From the NCBI GenBank assembly GCA_964036295.1, contig OZ038471.1:13534184-13598183 (forward strand): 64,000 nt of DNA. The letters run 5' to 3'. The notes beneath the pieces are model-generated. The model saw nothing but the letters and a program-made list of their open reading frames with translations. It searched no databases and was not told the DNA's origin. Positions within the stretch are counted from its first letter, which is position 1. The number at the start of each line of letters is the position of its first letter. This document shows, one piece after another, positions 303 through 50,204 of this stretch. This DNA comes from Plumapathes pennacea. Lineage: Eukaryota > Cnidaria > Anthozoa > Antipatharia > Myriopathidae. A program made the position numbers and the translations under genes.

Positions 303-552
303 CCACACAGGGCGCACAGGAGTTCACTAGCTTTATTATGTAAAACCCTATATATTGACTTGCATAAAGGATACCGCAGAACAATTACATTGCGGGCGCG
401 CGAAGGCATACGTACAAGGTATACTTAGTACGCGCCATGTCAGTATTATGCCTTTGCGCGCCCGCGATGAAATTGTCTTGCGGTATCATTCATACAGGTC
501 ATTATATAGGGTATTACATAATGGTGAGCAAGCGAACTCCTGTGCCCTGTGG
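303..552. mobile_element. foldback MITE with ~107-bp arms
   Basis: Arms 303-410 and 447-552 are inverted copies for their whole length with scattered mismatches. The outer end reads CCACACAGGGCGCACAGGAG on the left and ends CTCCTGTGCCCTGTGG on the right. The loop is only about 36 bases. An open frame across it is a by-product of the palindrome. No transposase is present, so it is non-autonomous. Confidence 0.75.
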
Positions 553-7310: not shown

Positions 7311-8989
7311 CTGATAGTGGATTGCATGTCCCCCAAAGAGAACCCTTTTAAATCACTTTCTTTCGAAACAACAGAGTTTAACATTCACCACTTCCACAAA
7401 TGTAGTGTAGCGCGAGTTGTGCGCTTTGGCCTTCCGCCGGAAGTTAATGTGCAACCCTCTCTTTTTTTTTTCAGTTCTTACTGAGGCACAACTTCTAAAT
7501 GAAAAATGGCTCAAAGAAGCAAAACACCAGAATTAGAAAGATAAGTAAAGTGTTTTAGCAAATTTAGGTTAGGGATGTTTATTCGAAGGGGGAGCTTGTT
7601 CGAGGGGAGGCGTTTATTGAATTTTCCCTAGTCATTTATTGTTGCAATGTGTAAATTTGCTCATGAACAACAAAGCAGTTCGTATAGTTTTATTAATAGC
7701 AACATACTTAAAAGTATGAAACATCGATTTTGACTTTCGATGGTGCTATTTACCATCGGTGCAAAAACAACAAAGTCTGTAGTAGGAGTTTGGCGCTTAT
7801 TTAAAATTTTGGCCAACGGGGGTGGGGGGGGGGGGTCATTTATTAGAGTGGGGCACTTATTTGAAGATCTTTCGCGTGACCATTTCGTAGAACCTTTTGC
7901 TATTCCTCACAGCGGTTGATCAGGGTCAGTCTCTCTTATGAGAGAGCACTTTTCTGAAATCTTACCAAAATTACAAAGTTCCCTCCAAAATTCCCTAAAT
8001 AGGTAGATAATATATTATTGAAACTTGGTTTGTAGCACCGTTCTTGGCCAGTGGAAACTGATGCTCTTTTAACTGAAAACTGATTTAATGTCAAAAAAGT
8101 TTTTTTGGTGGGGGGGGGGGGGAGGATTGGGGGAGATGATCATAGTTGGAATTAAGTCATATTTTGTGCATGTCGGATGCAAAAAGGCTTGCACCCTGTG
8201 GTGTGCTCCTTGAGGTGATTTTGGCATGGCATCTTAGTGGAGATCAGACAAGGGAATTTCCTCGTTGGTGAATTGGTTGTGTTGTGTCCATTACTTACAG
8301 AAAGAGGTACCTTGGTTACCGGTTCAAACGTGCTGTGGCAACGACCAGATACAATCTGATGAAATTTGCAACAAAATAAATGCCTATGACGTCGGCTGGG
8401 TTCTTGGATGATTGTTTGTCCAAGGCAGTAGGGAACGTCTGGAGGAGAGCACATGTGTTGCAGGACTTGAAAACGCAAGCTAGGGCATGCTCCAAGACGA
8501 AGAAATGGCCTCCTTTTAATCTGACAGGTTCCGTAGTTGGCTTACTAATCCAGGATGCAGTCATTCAAGTAGAATGATGGTGATCAGGAAAAGGATCAAG
8601 TCTCGAACTGGTGTGTTTCTTGCATCTTCAGTGAAAGGGTGGCTGTCTCGCTGTGGGAGTGGTTGCTTTGGTGTAGCATCGTGTGCATTTCAAAGATGTG
8701 CCAGAGGTCATACACCAAGTCTGCTCCTTGGTGAATTGGTTGAGCTGTGTCCAATGCTTACAGGAAAAGAGACTTGGTTACAACTACTGTAGGCCAAGTT
8801 GCCTGACAGGACTTTCAACAGGTTTCTGATGCGCACTGAGGCAGCTCTTCCTCAAGTTCTTGTACAGGCCATTCTGCAACTGTTGACATTCTTAGCACAA
8901 CCAATGTCATAAAATAGGGTGTTTCTCCTTTCGTCAGGAACAAGCAAGAAGCAGTGAAGGTTGTGGAGCCTTCATGTAACCACCTTCCT

Positions 8990-9140
8990 TCTTGACGCGA
9001 CAGCCTTTCGTCTTGCCGCGACCGCCTGCCGTCTTGCCGCGACCACCTGCTGTCTTGCTGCGACCGCCTGCCGTCTTGCTGGGATCACCTTCCGTCTTGT
9101 TGTGACCGCCTGCCGTCTTGCACCGATAACCTGCTGTCTT
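8990..9140 (-). repeat. 21-bp minisatellite, short degenerate version
   Basis: About seven diverged units of the form GCAAGACGG-AGGCGGTCGC read on the minus strand. This is the counterpart of the array at 48.96-49.48 kb. Units differ from one another at several positions. Confidence 0.8.
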
Positions 9141-9419
9141 CCAGCGACCTTTATGCCGTCTTGCTGCGGGTAAGAATGGCACGTCTTGCTGCGGACCACC
9201 TTCCTGTCGTGCTGTGACTGCCTGCCATCTCGATCAACTGTCGTATTGCCGCGACCGTCTCTCGTCTTGCTGCCTACCGCCCCCATTTCGTGCCTACCTG
9301 CCGTCTTGAGGTGTGTTAGGTAGCCGCGGGGGGGTTGTCGCCCTGGCGTGTCTGATTGTCATCTTGGGTGTCAGGGGTTCGTAGTCGTGTAGGATGTCAC
9401 CATGGCTTTGTAAGGTATA

Positions 9420-9575
9420 CGCACTGGCGTATTAGGTTGTCCGGCTGGCATGTTTGGTTGTCGCCCTTGCGTGTTAGGTTGTCGCCCTGGCGCGCTTGAT
9501 TGTCGCCCCGGCATGTTTGGTTGTCGCCCTGGCGTGTTTGGTTGTCGCCCTGGCGTGTTACCGCCTCTCGCCCTG
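9420..9575 (-). repeat. second 21-bp minisatellite, short degenerate version
   Basis: About seven units containing CCAGGGCGACAACC (minus strand), the counterpart of the array at 48.08-48.62 kb. In phase it would encode a TPGRQPN heptad, but the frame is not convincingly genic. Confidence 0.8.
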
Positions 9576-10399
9576 CTGTTGCCACCTTGTTGTTCTGGTG
9601 TGACCATCACTTTCCACCTCTTGGACTAAGGTAAGAACACGTGTTTTGTTTGATTTTGCTGAGGAACACTAGTGCACTTGGGAACGTCGTCGTTTTTGTT
9701 GACATGGGTCATGGTAAGAATTGCAACAAAACCCTGTTGCAAAAATGTACAAGAATTTGAAGAAGAGCTTGCTTCAGTGCACAGCAGCAACTTGTTGAAG
9801 GTTGCGTCAGCAAACTTGGCCTAGCAGTTACCACAGGGCATTTATATGCACGCATTCCAAGAACTAATCCAACTTGTGCAAGCTCCAATGCTACTACTCC
9901 AACTGGATGCATACATCTTCACAGAGACTTGGCTAGGTGACATAACATTAGATGTGGCGAGTGAATTCCTGGAATACCAACTGGAACGCAGGGAGTTTTC
10001 ATGTGTGTATACGCTGAAGCTACGCATGCTGGAATGTTCTTGACAAATGAGTACTTCACCAAGACGTTCCTGGGTGTCGCTGGTGCCATGCCCTACTGGT
10101 TCAGAAATGAATGATAAAACAGGCTATCTCCTGGAAGGACACCTCATATCTACAGTGAGATCGGACACCGCAATGAACTACTATAAAAATAGATTGACAA
10201 TCAAACGATCTGACAGATTAGGAGTTTTATAAAGACACTTTCAAATCCACCAAGGAAGCAAAAAGTCTTCATTTTTAAGAGCCCTTTGAGAACAGTCAAA
10301 GCCCTAAAGAGCTTTGGAAGCACTTTAAGAGTACTATGGGATCCACCCAGAAAGAGGGGGGGTACTTCCATATATAAGCCATATAGGTAGTGCTTCCCG

Positions 10400-10680
10400 A
10401 AAGGGTATCATTTTCAAGCATTTCTAGTCTGAAATTGGGTATAGATTTTGCCTTTTTGGTCTGAAATAGGGTATTGATTTTGTCTTTTTGGTCTGGGATA
10501 TGGTATGATTTTAACAGAAATGTGTCGTTGCGGACATTGCACGGCAAATGGAAGAAAGCACAGGGTGGAAATCGTTGCAAATGAAAAAACCTTTGAAATA
10601 GGTCTGAAATAGGATATACATTTTTGCAGTTGGGTCTAAAATAGAGTATACATAATTTGTCTTTACACTTCTGCCTTTTA
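10400..10680. repeat. degenerate short tandem repeat, TCTGAAATAGGGTAT type
   Basis: Several irregular copies of GGTCTGAAATAGGGTATNNATTTT with spacers of 30-60 bases. The inverted counterpart (CTATTTCAGAC) lies at 44.90-45.08 kb in the other arm. Confidence 0.7.
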
Positions 10681-10830
10681 TTTTCAGAGGGACTCTGATG
10701 TCAATGGGAGCATAAAGAACTAATTCCTTCAGCCCCAAATTTTGCTGGTGGGAAATCCATTTGATATAGATCTTAGCTATTACACATTGTTGTTGAAAGT
10801 CTTCCGTGCACCACTCCTCAGCAGAAAACG

Positions 10831-11453
10831 CAACTCACGCCGCGAGCTCACTGGCAACGCCAGTCTAGTTTACCAATTGAGAATATAAAGCGTTTATATA
10901 TGTCAAAAAGTGAATATTGTTTCATATCCGTGTCCCCGTGGTTTTGTGCGAAACAACAACAATACTGGAATATTTAGCGAACCTCTTACTGTGAAGACAA
11001 CATACCGCATTTAGCATAAGACGTATTGTGACGTGAAGATGTACGACACAGGTAATAAGCCGCAGGTGTATCATCCTCGTGCCCAGTTCCTTCCCCGCCT
11101 CCTCCGTGTACATTCCACCCCACCCCCGAAGTTACTCCCCTTTTTACACATAGTCCCCTAACAACCAAATATGGCATCAAAATTACCGTCTATTATTTTG
11201 TTGGCTATGTTTCATATTTATTTTTCCAAACCGCGAGGGTTGACTTACTGCAGCTCCTCTCTAGTCACCCAACCCGCCCCCCCCCCCCCCCCCCCCTACC
11301 CCTTTCCCTTAGGCCCCAAAATACATTTCACAACAGGAATTTAGCTGGAGTTTAACGCATGGGTATATTTAGTAAACATAATATGGCAGTGCTGACGTAG
11401 TTGTTATAGTTCACTAAAGGTGTTGGTGTTGTCTCTTGTTTTGTGATATTTTC
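10831..11453. other. gene-free stretch with poly-C run
   Basis: Contains a run of about 20 C at 11278-11297. No gene-like frame is supported. Confidence 0.5.
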
Positions 11454-13190: not shown

Positions 13191-15005
13191 CATGTTTCAA
13201 GAGTTTTCTTATAGTCTTAGGAATGTTACCTAAAAGTTTCAAGAGTTTTCAATTTTTGGCCAAAATCGTCTAATTTTGATGGGCTATTGCCTCAGTATTT
13301 TTTTGAAATACGGTCATTTTTGGACCTTCTTAGAATCGCATGAAACTTTTAGGAAACTTTTCTGGGACTAAAATAAGACTTATTGCAACATATTTGCATA
13401 ATTTATCTTCATCCGTTGGCGAGATAAAGCAGCAAAAGCGCTTCAAACTTCGAAAGGTGCGATGTTTTATTTTAATAGTCAATGATTTGCTCTAATTTAC
13501 TTTAATATCTCACGACTCCCTGCATAACATTTTACAAAAATTATATAACAACCGTCGACATGGCCCCGGAAAGGTTTCCTGAAAGTTTCATGCAATTTTA
13601 TAAATAACCGTATAAATAACAAAATACTAAGGCTATTGCCCATCAAAATTAGCCGATTTTGGCCAAAAATTAAAAACTCTATTAAACTTTTAGGAACCCT
13701 TCCTGGGACTATAAGGGGACTTTTTGCAATAAGTTTGCTTTATTTATCTTGATCCGTTGCCGAGATAAAGCAGCAAAAGCGCTTCAAACTTCAAGGTGTG
13801 ATGTTTTAATTAGTCAATGCTTTGCTCTAATTTCTCACGACGCGCGGACTAAAAGTTTACAAAAACTATGCAAAAACCGTCGGCATAGTCCCAGGAACGT
13901 TTCCTGAAAGTTTCATGCGATTCTGAGATCGTCGAGAAATGACCGGATTTTGACAAAATACCAAGGCCATAGCACAGGGATTTTTGTCAAAAATTGAAAA
14001 CTCTTTAAACTTTCAGGAAACCTTCCTTGGACTATAACAAGACTTTTTGCAATACATTTACTTTATCTATCTTTATCCGTCGGCGAGATATTGCAGCTTA
14101 AAATTGGCTCCTTTGCTCCAAAGGTGTGATGTTTTAATTAGTGCATGATTTGCTCTAATTTGCTCTAATTTCACACGACGCGCGGGCTAAAAGTTTACAA
14201 AAACTATGCAAAAACCGTCGGCATAGCCACAGGAACGTTTCCTGAAAGTTTCATGCGATTCTGAGCTGATCGAAAAATGACCGGATTTTGACAAAATACT
14301 AAGGCTATAGCACAGGGATTTTTGTCAAAAATTGACAACTCTTGAAACTTTCAGGAAACCTTCCTTGGAGTATAACAAGACTTTTTGTAATACATTTGCT
14401 TTATCTATCTTTATCCGTTGGCGAGATATAGCAGCTTAAATTTAGCTCCTTTGCTCCAAAGGTGTGATGTTTTAATTAGCGTATGATTTGCTCTAATTTC
14501 TCACGACGCGCGGGCTAAAAGTTTACAAAAACTATGCAAAAACCGTCGGCATAGCCACAGGAACGTTTCCTGAAAGTTTCATGCGATTCTGAGCTGATCG
14601 AAAAATGACCGGATTTTGACAAGAAATACTATTCCTTGGACTATAACAAGACTTTTTGCAATACGTTTGCTTTATCTATCTTTATCCGTTGGCGAGATAT
14701 ATTAAATTTGGATCCTTTGCTCGAAAGGTGTGAAACTTTGTCAAAATCCGGTCATTTTTCGACCTTCTCAGAATCGCATGAAACTTTCAGGAAACGTTCG
14801 TGGGACTATGCTGGCGGTTTTTCCATAGCCTTGTAAACTTTTAGCCCGCGCGTCGTGAGAAATTAGAGCAAATTAGAGCAATTCATGTGCTAAATAAAAC
14901 ATAATACCTTTCGAGCAAAGTGGGTCCCCCAAATTTAAGCTGCTAAATCTCGGCAACAGATGAAAATCGATAAAGCAAATGTATTGCAAAAAGTCTTGTT
15001 ACAGT
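13190..15005 (+). repeat. ~330-bp tandem repeat, left flanking block
   Basis: About five diverged units spaced roughly 325-340 bp apart, marked by GCGGGCTAAAAGTTTAC at about 13846, 14183 and 14512. Other shared marks are GGAACGTTTCCTGAAAGTTT and TTTATCCGTTGGCGAGATA. The last part (14730-15005) is in reverse orientation. The same repeat resumes at 29.94 kb on the far side of the 816-bp array. Units share no stable reading frame, so it is non-coding satellite DNA. Confidence 0.85.
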
Positions 15006-18000
15006 CTTATGCAAAGTGTTTTACCGGAACGATGTATCTCTCAACGATGCACACAAGGAAAGAAACCACGATTAAAAAGGTCAAGTTTCCGCCGAGATAT
15101 AATCAATCGACTTTCGCTCCATAGTAAGCTCTTATAGCTCACATTTACATAATATTACGCAAGTTTCTGTTAAGCATACGTTTTCTCTACTATGTAGCGC
15201 CACTCACAGGAATCCACAAGAACGTAGACTTTTAGGAAAGAACACCTATAAGACGCTTAATGAATGACAATCAGTTTGTCGGCAAAGAATTGAGCGAGAA
15301 ACGAACTATTCGCTATTTTCGTCTTTTAGCAAAGAAAAATTTCAATGTTTTGGGCGCTCTCAATTTTATAGTTAGAACAATTTTGCGCACTACTCTACTT
15401 GTACGGAAGCAACAGACGTAAAACTTGTGTCATTCATTTAGCATATCAATAGTATTGTAACGATTTAAGGCCGGACCCTCAGGCCTGGCTGAGCCTAAAG
15501 GCCCGACCGTAACCGAGCTGACACAGCGGACCAACGACGCACACGTGAACCGGGACAAGAAGAGAGGTTTATTTAAACAATTCATCTAATTTTATATGGT
15601 TTCGGTTAATAATTAGCAGTATCCGTTTTCAGATCATGGGTCTCGTTTGCGTAATAGAAGATTACGCAATTATCTCAATGTGGCACACGTTACAGTATTC
15701 TTCTATGAAACTCTGCGTTCTTGAGGTTACTTGTGAGCGACGCTGTATAGAGGGAGAGCACGGACTTTGGCGCATTAATGAGTTGATTTTATGCGTTCCT
15801 GAGCTATAAGAGCTTAGAGAGGAAAGAAATACAAATTTGGTTATAATTTGGACGAAACGTGACCGATTTAATCGCGCATTCTTTCCTCGCACGTCTCTTT
15901 AGCTTGCCCAACGTTTTCTAAAGTCTCTTGGAAAAAATAATTTTGAGGGATACAAGACATTTTGAAAATTAAAAAGTACCAAAATTTTTTTAACCTCCAG
16001 CTACCTTTTTATCCAATTCCTATTGTTTAAAAAAACAATCGTTGTTTCTGAAGCTCTGACTGCGTCTTATGCAAAGTGCTTTACAGGAAAGATGTATCTC
16101 TCAACGATGTACACAAGGAAAGAAACCACGATTAAAAAGGTCAGGTTTCCGCCGAGATATAATCAATCTACTTTCGCTCCATAGCAAGCTCTTATAGCTC
16201 ACATTTACATAATATTACGCAAGTTTCTATTAAGTGTACGTTTTCTCTACTATGTAGCGCCACTCACAGGAAACCTCAAGAACGCAGACTTTCAGCAAAG
16301 AACACCTATAAGACGCTTAATGAACGACAATCAGTTTGTCGGCAAAGAATTGAGCGAGAAACGAACTATTCGTTATTTTCTTTTTTTAGCAAAGAAAAAT
16401 TTCAATGTTTTGGGCGCTCTCAATTGGGTAGTTAGAACAATTTTGCGCACTACTCTTCTTGTACGGAAGCAACAGGCGTAAATCTTGTGTCATTCACTTA
16501 GCATATCAGTATTATTCTTCCAACAAAGTCTGTGTTCTTGAGGTTACTTGTGAGCGACGCTGCATAGAGGGAAAGAACAGACTTTGGCGCGTTAATGAGC
16601 TGATTTTATGCGTTCCTGAGCTATAAGAGCTTAGAGTGGAGAGAAATACAATTTTGGCTATAATTTGGCCAAAACGTGACCGATTTAATCGCGGATTGTT
16701 TTCTCGCACGTCTCTTTAGCTTGCCCAACGTTTTGTAAAATCTCTTGGAAAAAATAATTTTGAGGGATATAAGAAATTTTGAAAATTAAAAAGTACCAAA
16801 ATTTTTGACCCTCCAGCTACCTTATTATCCAATTCCTATTGTTTAAAAAAACAATCGTTCTTTCTGAAGCTCTCAGTGCGCTATATGGAAAGTGCTTTAC
16901 AGTAAAGATGTATCTCTCAACGATGCACACAAAGAAAGAAACCACGATTAAAATGGTCAAGTTTCCGCCGAGATACAATCAATCAACTTTCGCTCCATAG
17001 TAAGCTCTTATAGCTCACATTTACATAATATTACGCAAGTTTCTATTAAGTGTACGTTTTCTCTACTATGTAGCGCCACTCACAGGAAACCTAAAGAACG
17101 CAGACTTTCAGCAAAGAACACCTATAAGACGCTTAATGAATGACAATCAGTTTGTCGGCAAAGAATTGAGCGAGAAACGAACTATTCGCTATTTTCGTCT
17201 TTTAGCAAAGAAAAATTTCAATGTTTTGGGCGCTCTCAATTGGGTAGTTAGAACATTTTTGCGCACTACTCTTCTTGTACGGAAGCAACAGGCCTAAAAC
17301 TTCTGTCATTCACTTAGCATATCAGTATTATTCTTCCATGCAAGTCTGCGTTCTTGAGGTCACTTGTGAGCGACGCTGCATAAAGGGAGAGAACAGACTT
17401 TGGCGCGTTAATGAGCTGATTTTATGCGTTCCTGAGGTATAAGAGCTTAGAGTGGAGAGAAATACAATTTTGGCTATACTTTGGCCAAAACGTGACCGAT
17501 TTAATCGCGGATTGTTTCCTCGCACGTCTCTTTAGCTTGCCCAACGTTTTGTAAAATCTCTTGGAAAAAATAATTTTGAGGGATATAAGAAATTTTGAAA
17601 ATTAAAGAGTACCAAAATTTTTGACCCTCCAGCTACCTTATTATCCAATTCCTATTGTTTAAAAAAACAATCGTTGTTTCTGAAGCTCTCAGTGCGCTAT
17701 ATGGAAAGTGCTTTACAGGAAAGATGTATCTCTCAACGATGCACACAAAGAAAGAAACCACGATTAAAATGGTCAAGTTTCCGCCGAGATATAATCAATC
17801 TACTTTCGCTCCATAGTAAGCTCTTATAGCTCACATTTACATAATATTACGCAAGTTTCTATTAAGTGTACGTTTTCTCTACTATGTAGCGCCACTCACA
17901 GGAAATCTCAAGAACGCAGACTTTCAGCAAAGAACACCTATAAGACGCTTAATGAACGACAATCAGTTTGTCGGCAAAGAATTGAGCGAGAAACGAACTA

Positions 18001-20345
18001 TTCGCTATTTTCTTTTTTTAGCAAAGAAAAATTTCAATGTTTTGGGCGCTCTCAATTGGGTAGTTAGAACAATTTTGCGCACTACTCTTCTTGTATGGAA
18101 GCAACAGGCGTAAACATTCTGTCAGTTACTTAGCATATTAGTATTATTCTTCCATGAAAGTCTGCGTTCTTGAGGTTACTTGTGAGCGACGCTGCATAGA
18201 GGGAGAGAACAGACTTTGGCGCGTTAATGAGCTGATTTTATGCGTTCCTGAGGTATAAGAGCTTAGAGTGGAGAGAAATACAATTTTGGCTATAATTTGG
18301 CCAAAACGTGACCGATTTAATCGCGGATTGTTTCCTCGCACGTCTCTTTAGCTTGCCCAACGTTTTCTAAAGTCTCTTGGAAAAAATAATTTTGAGGGAT
18401 ATAAGAAATTTTGAAAATTAAAAAGTACCAAAATTTTTGACCCTCCAGCTACCTTATTATCCAATTCCTATTGTTTAAAAAAACAATCGTTGTTTCTGAA
18501 GCTCTCAGTGCGCTATATGCAAAGTGCTTTACAGGAAAGATGTATCTCTCAACGATGCACACAAAGAAAGAAACCACGATTAAAATGGTCAAGTTTCCGC
18601 CGAGATATAATCAATCTACTTTCGCTCCATAGTAAGCTCTTATAGCTCACATTTACATAATATTACGCAAGTTTCTATTAAGTGTACGTTTTCTCTACTA
18701 TGTAGCGCCACTCACAGGAAACCTCAAGAACGCAGACTTTCAGCAAAGAACACCTATAAGACGCTTAATGAATGACAATCAGTTTGTCGGCAAAGAATTG
18801 AGCGAGAAACGAACTATTCGCTATTTTCGTCTTTTAGCAAAGAAAAATTTCAATGTTTTGGGCGCTCTCAATTGGGTAGTTAGAACATTTTTGCGCACTA
18901 CTCTTCTTGTACGGAAGCAACAGGCCTAAAACTTCTGTCATTCACTTAGCATATCAGTATTATTCTTCCATGCAAGTCTGCGTTCTTGAGGTCACTTGTG
19001 AGCGACGCTGCATAAAGGGAGAGAACAGACTTTGGCGCGTTAATGAGCTGATTTTATGCGTTCCTGAGGTATAAGAGCTTAGAGTGGAGAGAAATACAAT
19101 TTTGGCTATACTTTGGCCAAAACGTGACCGATTTAATCGCGGATTGTTTCCTCGCAAGTCTCTTTAGCTTGCCCAACGTTTGGTAAAATCTCTTGGAAAA
19201 AAAGAAAGGGATATAAGAAATTTTGAAAATTAAAAAGTACCAAAATTTTTGACCCTCCAGCTACCTTATTGTCCAATTCCTATTGTATAAAAAAACAATC
19301 GTTGTTTCTGAAGCTCTCAGTGCGCTATATGGAAAGTGCTTTACAGGAAAGATGTATCTCTCAACGATGCACACAAAGAAAGAAACCACGATTAAAATGG
19401 TCAAGTTTCCGCCGAGATATAATCAATCTACTTTCGCTCCATAGTAAGCTCTTATAGCTCACATTTACATAATATTACGCAAGTTTCTATTAAGTGTACG
19501 TTTTCTCTACTATGTAGCGCCACTCACAGGAAACCTCAAGAACGCAGACTTTCAGCAAAGAACACCTATAAGACGCTTAATGAACGACAATCAGTTTGTC
19601 GGCAAAGAATTGAGCGAGAAACGAACTATTCGCTATTTTCTTTTTTTAGCAAAGAAAAATTTGAATGTTTTGGGCGCTCTCAATTGGGTAGTTAGAACAA
19701 TTTTGCGCACTACTCTTCTTGTATGGAAGCAACAGGCGTAAAAATTCTGTCAGTTACTTAACATATTAGTATTATTCTTCCATGAAAGTCTGCGTTCTTG
19801 AGGTTACTTGTGAGCGACGCTGCATAGAGGGAGAGAACAGACTTTGGCGCGTTAATGAGCTGATTTTATGCGTTCCTGAGCTATAAGAGCTTAGAGTGGA
19901 GAGAAATACAATTTTGGCTATAATTTGGCCAAAACGTGACCGATTTAATCGCGGATTGTTTCCTCGCACGTCTCATTAGCTTGCCCAACGTTTATTAAAA
20001 TCTCTTGGAAAAAATAATTTTGAGGGATATAAGAAATTTTGAAAATTAAAAAGTACCAAAATTTTTGACCCTCCAGCTACCTTATTATCCAATTCCTATT
20101 GTTTAATAAAACAATCGTTGTTTCTGAAGCTCTCAGTGCGCTATATGCAAAGTGCTTTACAGGAAAGATGTATTTCTCAACTATGCACACAAGGAAAGAA
20201 ACCATGATTAAAATGGTCAAGTTTCCGCCGAGATATAATCAATCTACTTTCGCTCCATAGTAAGCTCTTATAGCTCACATTTACATAATATTACGCAAGT
20301 TTCTATTAAGTGTACGTTTTCTCTACTATGTATTGCTACTCAAAG
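15006..20345 (-). repeat. 816-bp satellite array, block 1
   Basis: Head-to-tail units with an 816-bp period, marked by GTGCTTTACAGGAAAGATG at about 16073, 16893, 17706, 18522, 19338 and 20151. The first unit (15017) is longer because of an LTR-like insertion. Adjacent units differ, but units two apart (about 17.3 and 18.96 kb; 18.1 and 19.8 kb) share private variants, giving a 1632-bp higher-order period. Each unit holds two inverted half-copies (see findings). A 65-codon frame recurring in each unit starts with GTG and is not a plausible gene. Confidence 0.95.
15456..15694. mobile_element. probable solo LTR inserted in a satellite unit
   Basis: A 239-bp segment present in only one of the satellite units. 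It begins TGTAACG and ends CGTTACA, the TG...CA short inverted repeat usual for LTRs. It is flanked by GTAT on both sides (15452-15455 and 15695-15698), consistent with a 4-bp target duplication. No internal retroelement sequence remains. Confidence 0.65.
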
Positions 20346-23300
20346 GAAAGCAAGACAAGCCGTTCATTAAGCGTCTAATAGGTGTTCTTTGCTGAAAGTC
20401 TGCGTTCTTGAGGTTTCCTGTGAGTAGCGCTACATAGTAGAGAAGACGTACACTTAATAGAAACCTGCGTAATATTATGTAAATGTGAGCTATAAGAGCT
20501 TACTATGGAGCGAAAGTAGATTGATTATATCTCGGCGGAAACTTGACCATTTTCATTGTGGTTTCTTTCTTTATGTGCATCGTTGAGAGATACATCTTTC
20601 CTGTAAAGCACTTTGCATATAGCGCACTGAGAGCTTCAGAAAGAACGATTGTTTTTTTAAACAATAGGAATTGGATAATAAGGTAGCTGGAGGGTCAAAA
20701 ATTTTGGTACTTTTTAATTTTCCAAATTTCTTATATCCCTAAAAATTATTTTTTCCATGAGATTTTACAAAACGTTGGGCAAGCTAAAGAGACGTGCGAG
20801 GAAACAATCCGCGATTAAATCGGTCACGTATTGGCCAAATTATAGCCAAAATTGTATTTCTCTCCACTCTAAGCTCTTATAGCTCAGGAACGCATTAAGT
20901 CAGCTCATTAACGCGCCAAAGTCTGTTCTCTCCCTCTATGCAGCGTCGCTCACAAGTAACCTCAAGAACGCAGACTTTCATGGAAGAATAATATTGATAT
21001 GCTAAGTAAATGACAGAGGTTTTGCGCCTGTTGCTTCCATACAAGAAGAGTAGTGCGCAAAATTGTTCTAACTACCCAATTGAGAGCGCCCAAAACATTG
21101 AAATTTTTCTTTGCTAAAAAAAGAAAATAGCGAATAGTTCGTTTCTCGCTCAATTCTTTGCCGAGAAATTGATTGTCGTTCATTAAGCGTCTTATAGGTG
21201 TTCTTTGCTGAAAGTCTGCGTTCTTGAAGTTTCCTGTGAGTGGCGCTGCATAGTAGAGAAAACGTACACTTAATAGAAACTTACGTAATATTATGTAAAT
21301 GTGAGCTATAAGAGCTTACTATGGAGCGAAAGTAGATTGATTATATCTCGGCGGAAACTTGACCATTTTAATCGTGGTTTTTTTCCTTGTGTGCATCGTT
21401 GAGAGATACATCTTTCCTGTAAAGCACTTTACATATAGCGCACTGAGAGCTTCAGAAACAACGATTGTTTTTTTAAACAATAGGAATTGGATAATAAGGT
21501 AGCTGGAGGGTCAAAAATTTTGGTACTTTTTAATTTTCCAAATTTCTTATATCCCTCAAAATTATTTTTTCCAAGAGATTCTACAAAACGTTGGGCAAGC
21601 TAAAGAGACGTGCGAGGAAACAATCCGCGCTTAAATCGGTCACGTTTTGGCCAAATTATAGCCAAAATTGTATTTCTCTCCACTCTAAGCTCTTATAGCT
21701 CAGGAACGCATAAAATCAGCTCATTAACGCGCCAAAGTCTGTTCTCTCCCTCTATGCAGCGTCGCTCACAAGTAACCTCAAGAACGCAGACTTTCATGCA
21801 AGAATAATACTGATATGCTAAGTGAATGACAGAAGTTTTACGCCTGTTGCTTCCGTACAAGAAGAGTAGTGCGCAAAATTGTTCTAACTACCTAAATGAG
21901 AGCGCCCAAAACATTGAAATTTTTCTTTGCTAAAAGACGAAAATAGCGAATAGTTCGTTTCTCGCTCAATTCTTTGCCGACAAACTGATTGTCGTTCATT
22001 AAGCGTCTTATAGGTGTTCTTTGCTGAAAGTCTGCGTTCTTGAGGTTTCCTGTGAGTGGCGCTACAAAGTAGAGAAAACGTACACTTAATAGAAACTTGC
22101 GTAATATTATGTAAATGTGAGCTATAAGAGCTTACTATGGAGCGAAAGTAGATTGATTATATCTCGGCGGAAATTTGACCATTTTAATCGTGGTTTCTTT
22201 CTTTGTGTGCATCGTAGAGAAATACATCTTTCCTGTAAAGCACTTTGCATATAGCGCACTGAGAGCTTCAGAAACAACGATTTTTTTATTAAACAATAGG
22301 AATTGGATAATAAGGTAGCTGGAGGGTCAAAAATTTTGGTACTTTTTAATTTTCAAAATTTCTTATATCCCTCAAAATTATTTTTTCCAAGAGATTTTAC
22401 AAAACGTTGGGCAAGCTAAAGAGACGTGCGAGGAAACAATCCGCGATTAAATCGGTCACGTTTTGGCCAAATTATAGCCAAAATTGTATTTCTCTCCACT
22501 CTAAGCTCTTATAGCTCAGGAACGCATAAAATCAGCTCATTAACGCGCCAAAGTCTGTTCTCTCCCTCTATGCAGCATCGCTCACAAGTAACCTTAAGAA
22601 CGCAGACTTTGATTGAAAAATAATATTGATATGCTAAGTGAATGACAGAAGTTTTACGCCTGTTGCTTCCGTACAAGAAGAGTAGTGCGCAAAATTGTTC
22701 TAACTACCCAATTGAGAGCGCCCAAAACATTGAAATTTTTCTTTGCTAAAAAAAGAAAATAGCGAATAGTTCGTTTCTCGCTCAATTCTTTGCCGACAAA
22801 CTGATTGTCGTTCATTAAGCGTCTTATAGGTGTTCTTTGCTGAAAGTCTGCGTTCTTGAGGTTTCCTGTGAGTGGCGCTACATAGTAGAGAAAACGTACA
22901 CTTAATAGAAACTTGCGTAATATTATGTAAATGTGAGCTATAAGAGCTTACTATGGAGCGAAAGGAGATTGATTGTATCTCGGCGAAAACTTGACCATTT
23001 TAATCGTGGTTTCTTTCTTTGTGTGCATCGTTGAGAGATACATCTTTTCTGTAAAGCACTTTGCATATAGCGCACTGAGAGCTTCAGAAACAACGATTGT
23101 TTTTTTAAACAATAGGAATTGGATAATAAGGTAGCTGGAGGGTCAAAAATTTTGGTACTTTTTAATTTTCAAAATTTCTTATATCCCTCAAAATTATTTT
23201 TTCCAAGAGATTTTACAAAACATTGGGCAAGCTAAGGAGACGTGCGAGGAAACAATCCGCGATTAAATCGGTCACGTTTTGGCCAAATTATAGCCAAAAT

Positions 23301-23412
23301 TGTATTTCTCTCCACTCTAAGCTCTTATACCTCAGGAACGCATAAAATCAGCGCATTAACGCGCCAAAGTCTGTTCTCTCCCTTTATGCAGCGTCGCTCA
23401 CAAGTAACCTCA
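20346..23412 (+). repeat. 816-bp satellite array, block 2 (inverted relative to block 1)
   Basis: The same satellite in opposite orientation, with unit marks (complement of GTGCTTTACAGG) near 20600, 21415, 22235 and 23050. The left junction is at about 20340-20400, after TACTCAAAGGAAAGCAAGAC. The right junction falls inside the unit's own inverted repeat at CCTCAAGAAC (about 23409). Confidence 0.93.
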
Positions 23413-25590
23413 AGAACAGACTTTGGCGCGTTAATGAGCTGCTTTTATGCATTCCTGAGCTATAAGAGCTTAGAGTGGAGAGAAATACAATTTTGGCTAT
23501 AATTTGGCCAAAACGTGACCGATTTAATCGCGGATTGTTTCCTCGCACGTCTCTTTACCTTGCCCATCGTTTTGTAAAATCTCTTGGAAAAAATAATTTT
23601 GAGGGATATAAGAAATTTTGAAAATTAAAGAGTACCAAAATTTTTGACCCTCCAGCTACCTTATTATCCAATTTCTATTGTTTAAAAAAACAATCGTTGT
23701 TTCTAAAGCTCTCAGTGCGCTATATGGAAAGTGCTTTACAGGAAAGATGTATCTCTCAACGATGCACACAAAGAAAGAAACCACGATTAAAATGGTCAAG
23801 TTTCTGCCGAGATATAATCAATCTACTTTCGCTCCATAGTAAGCTCTTATAGCTCACATTTACATAATATTACGCAAGTTTCTATTAAGTGTACGTTTTC
23901 TCTACTATGTAGCGCCACTCACAGGAAACCTCAAGAACGCAGACTTTCAGCAAAGAACACCTATAAGACGTTTAATGAACGACAATCAGTTTGTCGGCAA
24001 AGAATTGAGCGAGAAACGAACTATTTGCTATTTTCGTCTTTTAGCAAAGAAAAATTTGAATGTTTTGGGCGCTCTCAATTGGGTAGTTAGAACAATTTTG
24101 CGCACTACTCTTTATGTATGGAAGCAACAGGCGTAAAAATTCTGTCAGTTACTTAGCATATTAGTATTATTCTTCCATGAAAGTCTGCGTTCTTGAGGTT
24201 ACTTGTGAGCGACGCTGCATAGAGGGAGAGAACAGACTTTGGCGCGTTAATGAGCTGATTTTATGCGTTCCTGAGGTATAAGAGCTTAGAGTGGAGAGAA
24301 ATACAATTTTGGCTATAATTTGGCCAAAACGTGACCGATTTAATCGCGGATTGTTTCCTCGCACGTCTCTTTAGCTTGCCCAACGTTTTGTAAAATCTCT
24401 TGGAAAAAATAATTTTGAGGGATATAAGAAATTTTGAAAATTAAAAAGTACCAAAATTTTTGACCCTCCAGCTACCTTATTATCCAATTCCTATTGTTTA
24501 AAAAAACAATCGTTGTTTCTGAAGCTCTCAGTGCGCTATATGGAAAGTGCTTTACAGGAAAGATGTATCTCTCAACGATGCACACAAAGAAAGAAACCAC
24601 GATTAAAATGGTCAAGTTTCTGCCGAGATATAATCAATCTACTTTCGCTCCATAGTAAGCTCTTATAGCTCACATTTACATAATATTACGCAAGTTTCTA
24701 TTAAGTGTACGTTTTCTCTACTATGTAGCGCCACTCACAGGAAACCTCAAGAACGCAGACTTTCAGCAAAGAACACCTATAAGACGCTTAATGAACGACA
24801 ATCAGTTTGTCGGCAAAGAATTGAGCGAGAAACGAACTATTCGCTATTTTCGTCTTTTAGCAAAGAAAAATTTCAATGTTTTGGGCGCTCTCAATTGGGT
24901 AGTTAGAACAATTTTGCGCACTACTCTTCTTGTATGGAAGCAACAGGCGTAAAAATTCTGTCAGTTACTTAGCATATTAGTATTATTCTTCCATGAAAGT
25001 CTGCGTTCTTGAGGTTACTTGTGAGCGACGCTGCATAAAGGGAGAGAACAGACTTTGGCGCGTTAATGAGCTGATTTTATGCGTTCCTGAGCTATAAGAG
25101 CTTAGAGTGGAGAGAAATACAATTTTGGCTATAATTTGGCCAAAACGTGACCGATTTAATCGCGGATTGTTTCCTCGCACGTCTCTTTAGCTTGCCCAAC
25201 GTTTTGTAAAATCTCTTGGAAAAAATAATTTTGAGGGATATAAGAAATTTTGAAAATTAAAAAGTACCAAAATTTTTGACCCTCCAGCTACCTTATTATC
25301 CAATTCCTATTGTTTAAAAAAACAATCGTTGTTTCTGAAGCTCTCAGTGCTCTATATGGAAAGTGCTTTACAGTAAAGATGTATCTCTCAACGATGCACA
25401 CAAAGAAAGAAACCACGATTAAAATGGTCAAGTTTCTGCCGAGATATAATCAATCTACTTTCGCTCCATAGTAAGCTCTTATAGCTCACATTTACATAAT
25501 ATTACGCAAGTTTCTATTAAGTGTACGTTTTCTCTACTATGTAGCGCCACTCACAGGAAACCTCAAGAACGCAGACTAGACGCAGAACTA
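23413..25590 (-). repeat. 816-bp satellite array, block 3
   Basis: Orientation returns to that of block 1, with unit marks near 23728, 24546 and 25363. The block ends at a junction almost identical to that between blocks 1 and 2. Confidence 0.93.
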
Positions 25591-28500
25591 CTCAAAGGAA
25601 ACCAAGACAAGCCGTTCATTAAGCGTCTAATAGGTGTTCTTTGCTGAAAGTCTGCGTTCTTGAGGTTTCTTGTGAGTAGCGCTACATAGTAGAGAAGACG
25701 TACACTTAATAGAAACCTGCGTAATATTATGTAAATGTGAGCTATAAGAGCTTACTATGGAGCGAAAGTAGATTGATTATATCTCGGCGGAAACTTGACC
25801 ATTTTCATTGTGGTTTCTTTCTTTATGTGCATCGTTGAGAGATACATCTTTCCTGTAAAGCACTTTCCATATAGCGCACTGAGAGCTTCAGAAACAACGA
25901 TTGTTTTTTTAAACAATAGGAATTGGATAATAAGGTAGCTGGAGGGTCAAAAATTTTGGTACTTTTTAATTTTCAAAATTTCTTATATCCCTCAAAATTA
26001 TTTTTTCCATGAAATTTTACAAAACGTTGGGCAAGCTAAAGAGACGTGCGAGGAAACAATCCGCGATTAAATTGGTCACGTTTTGGCCAAATTATAGCCA
26101 AAATTGTATTTCTCTCCACTCTAAGCTCTTATAGCTCAGGAACGCATAAAATCACCTCATTAACGCGCCAAGGTCTGTTCTCTCCCTCTATGCAGCGTCG
26201 CTCACAAGTAACCTCAAGAACGCAGACTTTCATGGAAGAATAATACTAATATGCTAAGTAACTGACAGAATTTTTACGCCTGTTGCTTCCATACAAGAAG
26301 AGTAGTGCGCAAAATTGTTCTAACTACCCAATTGAGAGCGCCCAAAACAATGAAATTTTTCTTTGCTAAAAAAAGAAAATAGCAAATAGTTCGTTTCTCG
26401 CTCAATTCTTTGCCGACAAACTGATTGTCGTTCATTAAGCGTCTTATAGGTGTTCTTTGCTGAAAGTCTGCGTTCTTGAGGTTTCCTGTGAGTGGCGCTA
26501 CATAGTAGAGAAAACGTACACTTAATAGAAACTTGCGTAATATTATGTAAATGTGAGCTATAAGAGCTTACTATGGAGCGAAAGTAGATTGATTATATCT
26601 CGGCAGAAACTTGACCATTTTAATCGTGGTTTCTTTCTTTGTGTGCATCGTTGAGAGATACATCTTTACTGTAAAGCACTTTCCATATAGAGCACTGAGA
26701 GCTTCAGAAACAACGATTGTTTTTTTAAACAATAGGAATTGGATAATAAGGTAGCTGGAGGGTCAAAAATTTTGGTACTTTTTAATTTTCCAAATTTCTT
26801 ATATCCCTCAAAATTATTTTTTCCAAGAGATTTTACAAAACGTTGGGCAAGCTAAAGAGACGTGCGAGGAAACAATCCGCGATTAAATCGGTCACGTTTT
26901 GGCCAAATTATAGCCAAAATTGTATTTCTCTCCACTCTAAGCTCTTATAGCTCAGGAACGCATAAAATCAGCTCATTAACGCGCCAAAGTCTGTTCTCTC
27001 CCTCTATGCAGCGTCGCTCACAAGTAACCTCAAGAACGCAGACTTTCATGGAAGAATAATATTGATTTGCTAAGTGAATGACAGAAGTTTTACGCCTGTT
27101 GCTTCCGTACAAGAAGAGTAGTGCGCAAAAATGTTCTAACTACCCAATTGAGAGCGCCCAAAACATTGAAATTTTTCTTTGCTAAAAGACGAAAATAGCG
27201 AATAGTTCGTTTCTCGCTCAATTCTTTGCCGACAAACTGATTGTAGTTCATTAAGCGTCTTATAGGTGTTCTTTGATGAAAGTCTGCGTTCTTGAGGTTT
27301 CCTGTGAGTGGCGCTGCATAGTAGAGAAAACGTACACTTAATAGAAACTTGCGTAATATTATGTAAATGTGAGCTGTAAGAGCTTACTATGGAGCGAAAG
27401 TAGATTGATTATATCTCGGCGGAAACTTGACCATTTTAATCGTGGTTTCTTTCCTTGTCTGCATCGTTGAGAGATACATCTTTCCTGTAAAGCACTTTAC
27501 ATATAGCGCACTGAGAGCTTCAGAAACAACGATTGTTTTTTTAAACAATAGGAATTGGATAATAAGGTAGCTGGAGGGTCAAAAATTTTGGTACTTTTTA
27601 ATTTTCAAAATTTCTTATATCCCTCAAAATTATTTTTTCCAAGAGATTTTACAAAACGTTGGGCAAGCTAAAGAGACGTGCGAGGAAACAATCCGCGATT
27701 AAATCGGTCACGTTTTGGCCAAATTATAGCCAAAATTGTTTTTCTCTCCACTCTAAGCTCTTATAGCTCAGGAACGCATAAAATCAGCTCATTAACGCGC
27801 CAAAGTCTGTTCTCTCCCTCTATGCAGCGTCGCTCACAAGTTACCTCAAGAACGCAGACTTTCATGCAAGAATAATACTGATATGCTAAGTGAATGACAG
27901 AAGTTTTACGCCTGTTGCTTCCGTACAAGAAGAGTAGTGCGCAAAATTGTTCTAACTACCCAATTGAGAGCGCCCAAAACATTGAAATTTTTCTTTGCTA
28001 AACGACGAAAATAGCGAATAGTTCGTTTCTCGCTCAATTCTTTGCCGACAAACTGATTGTCGTTCATTAAGCGTCTTATAGGTGTTCTTTGCTGAAAGTC
28101 TGCGTTCTTGAGGTTTCCTGTGAGTGGCGCTACATAGTAGAGAAAACGTACACTTAATAGAAACTTGCGTAATATTATGTAAATGTGAGCTATAAGAGCT
28201 TACTATGGAGCGAAAGTAGATTGATTGTATCTCGCCGGAAACTTGACCATTTTAATCGTGGTTTCTTTCCTTGTGTGCATCGTTGAGAGATACATCTTTC
28301 CTGTAAAGCCCTTTCTATATAGCGCACTGAGAGCTTCAGAAACAACGATTGTTTTTTTAAACAATGGGAATTGGATAATAAGGTAGCTGGAGGGTCAAAA
28401 ATTTTGGTACTTTTTAATTTTCAAAATTTCTTATATCCCTCAAAATTATTTTTTCCAAGAGATTTTACAAAACATTGGGCAAGCTAAAGAGACGTGCGAG

Positions 28501-29934
28501 GAAACAATCCGCGATTAAATCGGTCACGTTTTGGCCAAATTATAGCCAAAATTGTATTTCTCTCCACTCTAAGCTCTTATAGCTCAGGAACGCATAAAAT
28601 CAGCTCATTAACGCGCCAAAGTCTGTTCTCTCCCTCTATGCAGCGTCGCTCACAAGTAACCTCAAGAACGCAGACTTTGATTGAAGAATAATATTGATAT
28701 TCTAAGTGAATGACAGAAGTTTTACGCCTGTTGCTTCCGTACAAGAAGAGTAGTGCGTAAAATTGTTCTAACTACCCAATTGAGAGCGCCCAAAACATTG
28801 AAATTTTTCTTTGCTAAAAGACGAAAATAGCGAATAGTTCGTTTCTCGCTCAATTCTTTGCCGACAAACTGATTGTCGTTCATTAAGCGTCTTATAGGTG
28901 TTCTTTGCAGAAAAGTCTGCGTTCTTGAGGTTTCCTGTGAGTGGCGCTACATAGTAGAGAAAACGTACACTTAATAGAAACTTGCGTAATATTATGTAAA
29001 TGTGAGCTATAAGAGCTTACTATGGAGCGAAAGTAGATTGATTGTATCTCGCCGGAAACTTGACCATTTTAATCGTGGTTTCTTTCTTTGTGTGCATCGT
29101 TGAGAGATACATCTTTTCTGTAAAGCACTTTACATATAGCGCACTGAGAGCTTCAGAAACAACGATTGTTTTTTTAAACAATAGGAATTGGATAATAAGG
29201 TAGCTGGAGGGTCAAAAATTTTGGTACTTTTTAATTTTCAAAATTTCTTATATCCCTCAAAATTATTTTTTCCAAGAGATTTTACAAAACGTTGGGCAAG
29301 CTAAAGAGACGTGCGAGGAAACAATCCGCGATTAAATCGGTCACGTTTTGGCCAATTTATAGCCAAAATTGTATTTCTCTCCACTCTAAGCTCTTATAGC
29401 TCAGGAACGCATAAAATCAGCTCATTAACGCGCCAAAGTCTGTTCTCTCCCTCTATGCAGCGTCGCTCACAAGTGACCTCAAGAACGCAGACTTTCATGG
29501 AAGAATAATATTGATATGCTAAGTGAATGACAGAAGTTTTACGCCTGTTGCTTCCGTACAAGAAGAGTAGTGCGCAAAATTGTTCTAACTACCCAATTGA
29601 GAGCGCCCAAAACATTGAAATTTTTCTTTGCTAAACGACGAAAATAGCGAATAGTTCGTTTCTCGCTCAATTCTTTGCCGACAAACTGATTGTCGTTCAT
29701 TAAGCGTCTTATAGGTGTTCTTTGCTGAAAGTCTGCGTTCTTGAGGTTTCCTGTGAGTGGCGCTACATAGTAGAGAAAACGTACACTTAATAGAAACTTG
29801 CGTAATATTATGTAAATGTGAGCTATAAGAGCTTACTATGGAGCGAAAGTAGATTGATTATATCTCGGCGGAAACTTGACCTTTTTAATCGTGGTTTATT
29901 TCCTTGTGCATCGTTGAGAGATGCATCTTTCCTG
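25591..29934 (+). repeat. 816-bp satellite array, block 4
   Basis: Opposite orientation again, with unit marks near 25850, 26668, 27485, 28300, 29115 and 29925 (the last truncated). One unit is 817 bp. The array ends abruptly at GCATCTTTCCTGAC, where the ~330-bp repeat resumes. Confidence 0.93.
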
Positions 29935-31515
29935 ACTCGCGGGCTAAAAGTTTACAAACAGTATGCAAAAAACGTCAGTATAGTCCCAGGAACGTTTCCT
30001 GAAAGATTCATGCGATTCTGAGATGGTCGAAAAATGACTGCATTTTGACAAAATACTAAGGCTATAGCACAGAGTTTTTTTGTCAAAAATTGAAAACTCT
30101 TGAAACTTTTAGGAAACCTTCCTTGGAATATAACAATACTTTTTTGAAATATATTTGCTTTATCTATCTTTATCCGTTGGCGAGATATAGCAGCTTAAAA
30201 TTGGCTCCTTTGCTCCAAAGGTGTGATTTTTTTATTAGTGCATGATTTGCTCTAATTTGCTCTAATTTCTCACGACGCGCGGGCTAAAAGTTTACAAAAA
30301 CTATGGAAAATCCGTGGGCATAGTCCCAGGAACGTTTGTTGAAAGTTTCATGTGATTCTGAGATGGTCGAAAAATGACCGGATTTTGACAAAATACTAAG
30401 GCTATAGCACAGGGTTTTTTGTCAAAAATTGAAAACTCTTGAAACTTTCAGGAAACCTTCTTTGGACTAAGACTTTTTGCAATACATTTGCTTTATCTAT
30501 CTTTATCCGTTGGCGAGATATACCAGCTTAAAATTGGCTCCTTTGCTCCAAAGGTGTGATGTTTTAATTAGCGTATGATTTGCTCTAATTTCTCACGACG
30601 CGCGGGCTAAAAGTTTACAAAAACTATGGAAAATCCGTGGGCATAGTCCCAGGAACGTTTCCTGAAAGTTTCATGCGATTCTGAGATGGTCGAAAAATGA
30701 CCGGATTTTGACAAAATACTAAGGCTATAGCACAGGGTTTTTTGTCAAAAATTGAAAACTCTTGAAACTTTCAGGAAACTTTCCTTGGACTAAGACTTTT
30801 TGCAATACATTTGCTTTATCTATCTTTATCCGTTGGCGAGATATAGCAGCTTAAAATTGGCTCCTTTGCTCCAAAGGTGTGTTTTAATTAGCGTATGATT
30901 TGCTCTAATTTGCTCTAATTTCTCACGACGCGCGGGCTAAAAGTTTACAAAAACTATGTAAAAACCGTCGGCATAGTCCCAGGAACGTTTCCTGAAAGTT
31001 TCATGCGATTCTGAGATGGTCGAAAAATGACCGGATTTTGACAAAATACTAAGGCTATAGCCCACTAGAATTAGCTGATTTTGGCCAAAACTCTGAAAAC
31101 TCTTGAAACTTTTAGGAAACCTTCCTGGGACTATAGGACGACTTTTTGCAATACCTTGATTTATCTCCATCCGTTGGCGAGATAAAGCAGCAAAAGCGCT
31201 TCAAACTTCGAAAGGTGTGATGTTTTAATTAGTCGATGATTTGCTCTAATTTGCTTTAATATCTCACGACCCGCTGGATAAAAGTTTACAAAAAATATAT
31301 ACAACCATCGGTATAGTCCCAGGAACATTTCCGGAAAGTTTCATTCGATTCTGAGATGGTTGAAAAATGACCGTACTTTGACAAAATAGTAAGGCTTTAG
31401 CCCATGGTTTTTTGTCAAAAATAGCCGATTTTGGTGAAAAATTGAAAACTCTTGAAACGTTTAGGAAACCTTCCTGGGACTATAACAAGACTTTTTGTAA
31501 TACATTTCCGTGACG
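29935..31515 (+). repeat. ~330-bp tandem repeat, right flanking block
   Basis: About five units marked by GGGCTAAAAGTTTAC at 29941, 30281, 30604 and 30933, with a diverged one near 31275. Same family as 13.2-15.0 kb. Middle units resemble each other more than the outermost one does, as expected if the array decays from its edge. Confidence 0.88.
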
Positions 31516-40288: not shown

Positions 40289-40492
40289 TTAACTCTTTCA
40301 CTCCCAAGTTCAAAAGGCAGATTCTCCTAACCTTTTAAGAGAAAATTGTATGAGTGATGTAGTGAGAATTGATGGTTTAATCAGCTATCATCTGAGCAAA
40401 GTATCAAAAGCCAAGCTTACCTTACTGTATGAATATAAATTTGTGCTGCCAACTGAAGGAGAAAATTGAACTTGATTACTCTAGGGAGTCAA
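40289..40492 (+). mobile_element. ~205-bp MITE family, copy 3, inserted in helicase fragment
   Basis: Starts TTAACTCTTTCACTCCCAAG and ends near CTCTAGGGAGTCAA. It cuts the RecQ-like reading frame just after the codons for NYPPLT, so the helicase exon is truncated by this insertion. Confidence 0.8.
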
Positions 40493-41361
40493 TGGGGGGT
40501 AGTTTATCAAATCAACCTTTAACTGTTCAGCAATTGGTGTCAAAACGTTCTCAAATGATTCAATACCGAGCCTTGCTGGGCCACGCCTGTACTTGCCGAT
40601 AAAAATATTTGGTCGATCAACATTGTCCACAATTCTTACTGGTGATTTTAAACCTAAGACAATTATTGTCTCCCGCATCTTCTGTGGGGCTGTCCCGTCA
40701 GGGCAACTAATGGAACATCAGGGAACAGTGAACCCAAAATAGAAAGCCTTTTAAATGCTGGTCGAAATTCCTGGCCCCTAGTAAAACAAAACCAGAAAAT
40801 GTCAATTGTCATATGCCACATATCGTACAGATGCAAATGCTTTCATGTCCGAATCGATGTACTGGATAGGCAGTCTTGGAACTAAAATTCACAATATCAT
40901 GTACGTATAGGATATTTATTTATTAGTGCACAGATGGCAAAGAAGTTTTAAATCAAACGAGAAGCGAATATTTTCCGTCTCCGGAACGATTTCTAACAAC
41001 AACTCGTCATCACTTGAATTATCACTTGAACTGTTGTCCCGCTCTTGTAATCCACCGCAGCGCAAAACAGCACTTGTAATTCCCTTCTGCGTCAACGACT
41101 TCGAATGATTTTAAGAGGACAAATAACTAAAATGACTGAATCTATTTCTACAGTGGTTCCAGTGTGCTTTTTGAAAGCATTCAAATTGGGAATCAACTGG
41201 AAAATTAACGATTTCCCGTATCCTGTTGGTAGAACACCAAAGACATCCTTCTCCAGATAAACGGCTTCTAATGCCCGCACTTGTCCCACTTTGAAATTTA
41301 CAGATATGTCTGACTCCTGAACCGAAAAGTTCAGAGAACGCAGGAAATTGTAAACCGCCAT
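40481..41361 (-). pseudogene. RecQ-like DNA helicase fragment (broken)
   Basis: ATP-dependent 3'-5' DNA helicases of the RecQ family unwind DNA in repair and recombination. The minus-strand frame from ATG 41361 to 41092 has a Q-motif-like region and a Walker A (VLPTGYGKSLIFQL), then ILVICPL, corresponding to helicase motifs 0, I and Ia. A later piece (about 40778-40481) follows a good acceptor (TTTTACTAG) and reads VPLVALTG, then shifts frame by one base and continues PQKMRETIIVLGL and DRPNIFIGKY, which matches the start of the second RecA lobe. The exon with the DEAH box is missing between them. An intermediate stretch (about 41076-40920) is open in another frame. A MITE truncates the end. 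With a frameshift, a missing motif II and the insertion, it is a pseudogene. The Walker A and RPNIF motifs make the family assignment fairly safe. Confidence 0.75.
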
Positions 41362-41442
41362 TTTGAAAAAAAAATCAGATACCTTCCCATGATACCAAGC
41401 GGGGAAATGTACAAGAATCTTGTACATTTTGCAGCCTGTACC

Positions 41443-46991: not shown

Positions 46992-47106
46992 AGATTAGAG
47001 ATTAGAGCTGCAAGCTGCGGTCCTGACAGTACGGATTGGCCAAACCACCCAGAGAGAGCTAGATATTTAGGCTAAGCAGATCACCTACTGGACAGATTTA
47101 ACTACC

Positions 47107-50172: not shown

Positions 50173-50204
50173 ACAGACCTCACTTGAGCAGATCACCCCA
50201 ACTG

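Follow-up and report, generated by a model that had tools for sequence, protein, structure and literature searches.

An 816-bp satellite of Plumapathes pennacea carries an old inverted duplication within its unit

In this work, we describe a 64,000-nucleotide stretch of the genome of the antipatharian Plumapathes pennacea (C10:13534184-13598183, hereafter the window), of which about 15 kb (15007-29934) are taken up by a tandem satellite with a unit of 816 bp. A first-pass annotation, made from the letters of the sequence, had placed such a satellite at 15006..29934, and it did so rightly: 15 full units are present, with a mean pairwise identity of 97.2%. The unit map revealed one feature absent from that annotation, the orientation of the array, which alternates over four blocks. 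Units are numbered from window position 16900 (position 1 of the reference unit), and the coordinates of the array, its parts and its neighbours are collected in Table 1. The genome search covered 24 contigs (290 Mb), and 20 places of the 816 family (L009-L028) were retrieved for comparison.

Table 1. The 816-bp array, the parts of its reference unit, the adjoining satellite and the places where orientation changes
Feature	Position	Strand	Basis or remark
338-bp satellite, left flank, dyad unit	13212..15006	-, +, - pieces	repeat finding, self-matches
816-bp satellite array, four alternating blocks	15007..29934	.	unit map and 15-unit alignment
Block 1	15028..20349	+	unit map; broken by insertion 15457-15695
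Block 2	20363..23423	-	unit map; meets block 1 at unit +202/-243
Block 3	23413..25577	+	unit map; meets block 2 at unit -451..456/+491..496
Block 4	25615..29934	-	unit map
Arm A, reference unit (unit 35-246)	16934..17145	+	inverted alignment and shuffles
Inner spacer (unit 247-404)	17146..17303	.	non-palindromic; score 7 vs 8.2 in shuffles
Arm B (unit 405-619), inverted copy of arm A	17304..17518	-	inverted alignment and shuffles
Outer spacer (unit 620-816 and 1-34)	17519..17749	.	no inverted copy of remainder
338-bp satellite, right flank, dyad unit	29934..31507	+	154-column inverted match, E 2.8e-14
Orientation switches, window	unit +202/-243; -451..456/+491..496; +229/-245
Orientation switches, L009	unit -355/+297; +467/-386; -332/+389; +467/-386
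Orientation switches, L011	unit +465/-319; -156/+490

Several other elements lie in the window. Two matching sets of segments (7389-10831 and 44730-54679), about 78-85% alike, stand in opposite orientation; they include 21-bp tandem repeats (8979-9560 and 48079-49477), a frame of RVT_3 type (RNase H-like) lies in the right set at 51127-51699, and we take both sets, as a guess, to be DIRS-type. A dispersed repeat of about 200 bp, SINE-like in size, occurs in five copies (640-830, 1686-1893, 40289-40496, 60364-60574 and 62677-62890) that are approximately 73-83% alike and lie in both orientations. Open frames were noted at 41092-41547 (-), short and DEAD-box helicase-like, and at 61003-61485 (+), of F5/8 type C (discoidin-like). 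Inside the first 816-bp unit there is an insertion of about 240 bp with the ends GTAACG/CGTTAC; AGTATT flanks it on both sides (read by eye) as a likely target duplication, which suggests a small inverted-repeat element.

At the junction of blocks 2 and 3, 11 bp match from both sides, and an exact stretch of 38 bp is common to the left junction of block 4 and the junction of blocks 1 and 2. The long inverted arms of the window array are 96.2% identical over 6524 columns. Large palindromes of mixed 405-bp and 816-bp units were also seen on contig C12, at L009 (C12:887001-897000, arms 96.6% identical over 1878 columns) and at L011 (C12:2589001-2599000, arms 99.1% identical). An assembly fold-back is an unlikely source of such inverted blocks, with the window arms about 4% apart and 18 of 1978 columns differing in the palindrome of L011.

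Within the reference unit, positions 35-246 align with positions 405-619 in inverted orientation (154 of 225 columns identical, or 68%, E 2e-11), and in the consensus the inverted score of arm against arm was 78, where dinucleotide shuffles gave 12.3 +/- 2.1 and none of 500 scored as high. The inverted copies that the first-pass annotation had described within each unit are therefore real. The similarity is not limited to a central 35-40 bp, because the blocks quoted there, GATTAAAATGGTCAAGTTTC / GATTAAATCGGTCACGTTTT, CTCTTATAGCTCA and GAACGCAGACTTTC, all fall within the arm alignment and the outer arms alone score 41 against 10.7 +/- 1.9 (0 of 500 shuffles). The halves of about 300-400 bp that it had proposed were too large, as the arms measure about 212 bp and the spacers are without inverted similarity. 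For the inner spacer (158 bp) the consensus gave no signal in the inverted-copy test (Table 1); for the outer spacer (231 bp) one half against the other scored 8, with shuffles at 10.0, again without a signal of an inverted copy, and comparison of this spacer with the dyad detected no similarity, either direct (13, shuffles 13.6) or inverted (13, shuffles 14.0). A small excess appeared when the outer spacer was set against its own reverse complement (21 versus 13.2, 4 of 500 shuffles as high), which may have no other cause than the self-comparison, a condition that did not apply to the shuffles. Since the 158 and 231 bp between the arms are no inverted copies, the dyad occupies about half of the 816-bp unit, as arms of about 212 bp framed by unrelated sequence.

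Relatives of the unit were found elsewhere in the genome, the 816-type places among the matches listed lying on C12, C9, C4, C7, C8, C3 and C10; these matches are a lower bound, the window's own array being absent from one search and present in another. On C12 there is a 405-bp unit, whose 15 aligned copies have a mean identity of 98.3%; it is about 86% identical to unit 139-549 and keeps the inner arms (inverted score 46 versus 10.8, 0 of 500 shuffles). It makes up an array of single orientation throughout at L010, and at L009 and L011 it is mixed with 816-bp units in blocks of opposite orientation. Some dispersed copies carry arm B without arm A (L024, L025 and L026). In L026, unit 529-635 and 243-531 stand in direct repeat with a spacing of about 406 bp, and among the matches listed the same B-only joint is present at C12:617580 (94%) and C4:3992508 (82%, partial). 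Tests of self-inversion were not significant for L026 (92 of 200 shuffles as high) and L024 (65 of 200), and L025 gave a weak signal (7 of 200). An edge at about unit 243-249, not far from where arm A ends on its inner side, recurs in L019, L024, L025 and L026. A composition of the unit from two parts of 408 bp was rejected, since unit 139-549 against 550-138 scored 13 in direct orientation (shuffles 13.5) and 16 in inverted orientation (shuffles 13.6). This absence of similarity contrasts with the two half-length forms, each of which lacks about 406 bp. On C9 a composite repeat of about 3 kb (L014, L015 and L016, 96-97% alike) adjoins 816-type and 338-type sequence, and its near-full-length copies are on C9 only among the matches listed.

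The age of the duplication was approached with an arm tree built from 49 rows (44 distinct), in which dispersed copies on other contigs were included. Matches below 90 positions were left out, L010 entered as a consensus only, L009 and L011 each contributed at most three rows per arm, and 7 rows fill at most half of the columns. A single branch with a support of 100/100 separated the 22 A rows from the 27 B rows without exception, and because of this separation the dyad is regarded as old, in agreement with the word "ancient" in the first-pass annotation. The root was placed at the midpoint only; on this root the duplication would be older than every sampled copy and the B-only copies would have lost arm A, while without a clock it is possible that arm A stems from the B-only form.

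A second satellite, with a 338-bp unit, adjoins the 816-bp array on the left and on the right. All ten arrays with a period of 300-380 bp that the tandem-repeat program reported in the window and L009-L028 match themselves in inverted orientation, nine at E <=2.2e-7 and the array of L011 at 4.4e-6; these arrays are one family and so not independent, and a self-palindrome counts each arm twice. Among eight distinct tandem repeats with a period of at least 90 (window and L009-L048), no shuffle out of 100 reached the dyads of the 338-bp and 816-bp units; of the remaining six repeats, one was borderline (2 of 100) and five were not significant (15 to 100 of 100), these six being a weak control for their shorter units (100-193 bp) and, mostly, fewer than 3 copies. 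Profile searches of 338 against 816 in both directions matched only shuffled decoys, and neither these searches nor pairwise alignment support descent of the two satellites from one ancestor.

The two families are nonetheless often neighbours. In 11 of 20 loci, three of which (L014-L016) are near-copies of one another, 338-type sequence lies at most 0.75 kb from 816-type sequence, and the retrieved stretch of the other 9 contains none. The reverse search found 816 sequence in none of 20 further 338 arrays, an unfair test since their flanks are very short. At L017 a 338-type dimer sits inside an 816-type copy near unit 1-9, and L018 continues across this insertion point, a short gap apart; the junctions share at most 5 bp, where a coarser alignment had overlapped by 9 unit positions. 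The phases in which 338 and 816 are joined vary among the junctions examined, and four of them (both sides of the window array and both sides of the L017 insertion) are near unit 800-9. Changes in the orientation of 338-type sequence were observed within L013, L014, L016, L031, L037, L039 and L042, which shows that the 816 family is not alone in having inverted blocks.

A possible role as cruciform or centromere device has been considered for satellites with dyad units, and pairing between the arms was followed in both families. For the 816 family we used 112 arm pairs inside unit 139-549 and, as rows, the consensus with 31 of 75 matches (at most 4 per locus), 25 rows having enough of both arms. 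Pairing within copies minus pairing between copies was 0.0000, -0.0012, -0.0040, +0.0092 and -0.0048 in classes of rising divergence with 19, 96, 80, 54 and 40 comparisons, respectively. In the 25 rows 0.58-0.76 of the arm positions still pair, and in 1856 cells at consensus Watson-Crick pairs there were 8 double changes, 78 one-sided changes (G-T) and 180 broken pairs. For the 338 family, 52 rows were taken from 95 full-length matches, with a limit of 2 per locus and the least reference-like first; 93 partial matches were left out. Here the same difference, by rising divergence, was -0.0025, -0.0011, +0.0037, +0.0099 and -0.0053, the mutual information of dyad pairs was -0.0009 versus -0.0001 for all pairs (slid controls -0.0030 to +0.0065), and 4072 cells at consensus Watson-Crick pairs held 19 double changes, 158 one-sided changes (G-T) and 468 broken pairs. 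In the copies examined of both satellites the arms drift independently, and pairing is no better within a copy than across copies.

Conservation in the 816 family was 0.846 and 0.849 for the arms and 0.812 for the inner spacer (16 chosen rows), a nominal difference, and in the 338 family it was 0.851 and 0.850 for the arms and 0.865 for the remainder (29 rows, one per locus), so that the arms are hardly, if at all, better conserved than other parts of the unit. A single strand of the 816-bp unit folds at -97.8 kcal/mol compared with -61.6 for shuffles (z -7.58, 0 of 100), which we read as a consequence of the old duplication and do not take to show upkeep. Cruciform extrusion, as suggested by the first-pass annotation, is no more than a potential: this fold speaks for it, but about 30% of the arm columns are mismatched or gapped, a 158-bp spacer of unrelated sequence separates the arms and co-evolution is absent in the copies examined.

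A role of the dyad in recombination, also proposed there, found weak support. On unit coordinates we placed nine switches of orientation, all of them in the window, L009 or L011 (Table 1), and for a switch guided by the dyad the two coordinates are expected to sum to about 654. Two of the nine come close to this register (652 and 646), but seven do not (445, 947, 474, 853, 721, 853 and 784), and the nine are not independent, as two window switches share the 38-bp stretch and two of L009 share one position pair. All eighteen breakpoints lie within unit 156-496, mostly at different positions, which was noticed after the fact. We infer that most switches arose by short-range strand switching, and two were perhaps guided by the arms.

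In the tripled 816-bp unit the longest stop-to-stop frame has 97 codons, and a coding unit was rejected on this ground. Retrozyme-like satellites have a unit that carries a self-cleaving ribozyme. Such an identity was rejected, as Rfam reported no family at gathering score in the whole 64-kb window; three sub-threshold matches, from 13300-18600 only, are at chance level and none is a ribozyme. Because there is no long frame and no RNA family, and the listed places are scattered along contigs, the satellite gives no positive sign of function.

The nearest described case that we found, with matching anatomy, is TmSat2 of the beetle Tribolium madens, as presented in PMC13081366 (a paper cited by PMC13427858). 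The 704-bp unit of TmSat2 includes inverted segments that are imperfect and about 300 bp long, and the TmSat2 arrays consist of opposite-orientation blocks in cassettes embedded in TmSat1. Likewise, the 816-bp satellite has a long tandem unit with long inverted segments (about 212 bp here), forms opposite-orientation blocks in the window array, L009 and L011 (L010 is one-directional), and is embedded in a second satellite on both sides in the window. According to that paper, TmSat1 and TmSat2 both derive from one element of about 110 bp, fill megabase putative pericentromeric regions and have conserved inversion sites; in contrast, the 816 and 338 profiles find no match with each other, and the arrays among the matches listed extend over kilobases at dispersed places. 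As to inversion sites, the nine switches placed here are mostly at different unit positions but all within 156-496, and two pairs of them share a stretch or a position pair. The 1061-bp satellite of Tribolium brevicornis is likewise built of two long inverse segments (Mravinac et al. 2005, cited in PMC13081366), but at about 470 bp these nearly fill the unit, whereas the arms here fill about half. An internal inverted repeat is also known in the 385-bp satellite of Trichogramma brassicae, of 80 bp only (cited in PMC13081366). The view that dyad-unit satellites are uncommon holds in so far as PMC13081366 rates longer dyads inside satellite repeats as "not so common", yet it describes cases of them, and the 816-bp satellite belongs with the known long intra-monomeric dyad satellites of the T. 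brevicornis and TmSat2 kind. From coral and cnidarian satellite literature, the available part of PMC10586311 mentions no dyad unit.

We consider it likely that the 816-bp repeat is a neutral, non-coding tandem satellite and that its dyad is a fossil of the birth of the unit, with arms that have drifted independently since, and not a kept structure. If the dyad were kept because DNA cruciforms or RNA hairpins act in chromatin, recombination or small RNA, then the strong fold of the single strand, the presence of dyads in both joined satellites and the share of arm positions that pair would be accounted for; the absent arm co-evolution in both families, the 338 arms with no extra conservation over the remainder, the mismatched or gapped arm columns and the 158 unrelated bases between the arms make this decidedly unlikely. 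A centromeric or pericentromeric nature, which has been put forward for the satellites of Tribolium madens, would suit the shared anatomy of dyad unit, inverted blocks and satellite within satellite. However, the 816/405 and 338 places among the matches listed occupy many separate positions per contig on many contigs, not one large cluster, and we hold this reading, and with it the centromere link of the first-pass annotation, to be very improbable; the assembly may lack long centromeric arrays.

It is unlikely as well that the unit goes back to an inverted-repeat transposon, foldback-like or other, whose terminal repeats would be the arms. Such an origin could draw on the inverted arms of copies dispersed on several contigs, on the 338-type dimer within the 816-type copy at L017, where L018 is uninterrupted save for a short gap, and on the edge near unit 243-249 that recurs in four loci, but this edge is the joint of the B-only form and no insertion end, and the junctions of L017 share only 5 bp. 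Moreover, none of the 17 mapped loci contains a copy that spans unit 35-619, no arm-bounded copies with target duplications were seen among them, many pieces cross the 816 boundary as tandem pieces, and the 816-bp unit has no coding sequence. Some findings also speak against the dyad as a fossil of unit birth. Two mutually unmatched, co-located satellites both have dyad units, whereas the six other tandem repeats show none clearly, and a chance twin birth is possible but notable; the 816 arms are nominally slightly above the inner spacer in conservation and the strand still folds; L025, a B-only copy, is weakly self-inverted; and the arm tree is rooted at the midpoint only.

Under the favoured reading of the dyad as a relic of unit birth, the founding unit arose when a segment of about 212 bp was duplicated once in inverted orientation, as its sequence shows, probably by hairpin or template-switch repair. 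By the arm tree, and provided that rates were roughly clock-like, this duplication precedes the amplification and spread of the family, and the arms of the copies examined have drifted independently since. Later changes of the arrays would have comprised tandem amplification, loss of about half a unit giving the 405-bp arrays and the dispersed B-only copies, strand-switch inversions giving the alternating blocks, and joining with the 338-bp satellite, perhaps through integrated circular or copied array pieces, as the varied joining phases suggest.

It is conceivable, though of low probability, that long satellite units of different animals repeatedly arrive at dyad symmetry with unrelated sequences, an idea which comes from the 816-bp and 338-bp satellites, between which no relation was detected and which both combine dyad, inverted blocks and cassette, as in flour beetles. 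If it is recurrent, long satellites would often be born via inverted duplication, or overall symmetry, and not base-by-base pairing, would be favoured. The arms can be traced across dispersed copies of differing age, which makes a direct test of co-evolution feasible, and the same test may be applied to the beetle satellites as well. The absence of arm co-evolution in the copies examined argues that a satellite dyad can be a birthmark rather than a kept structure.
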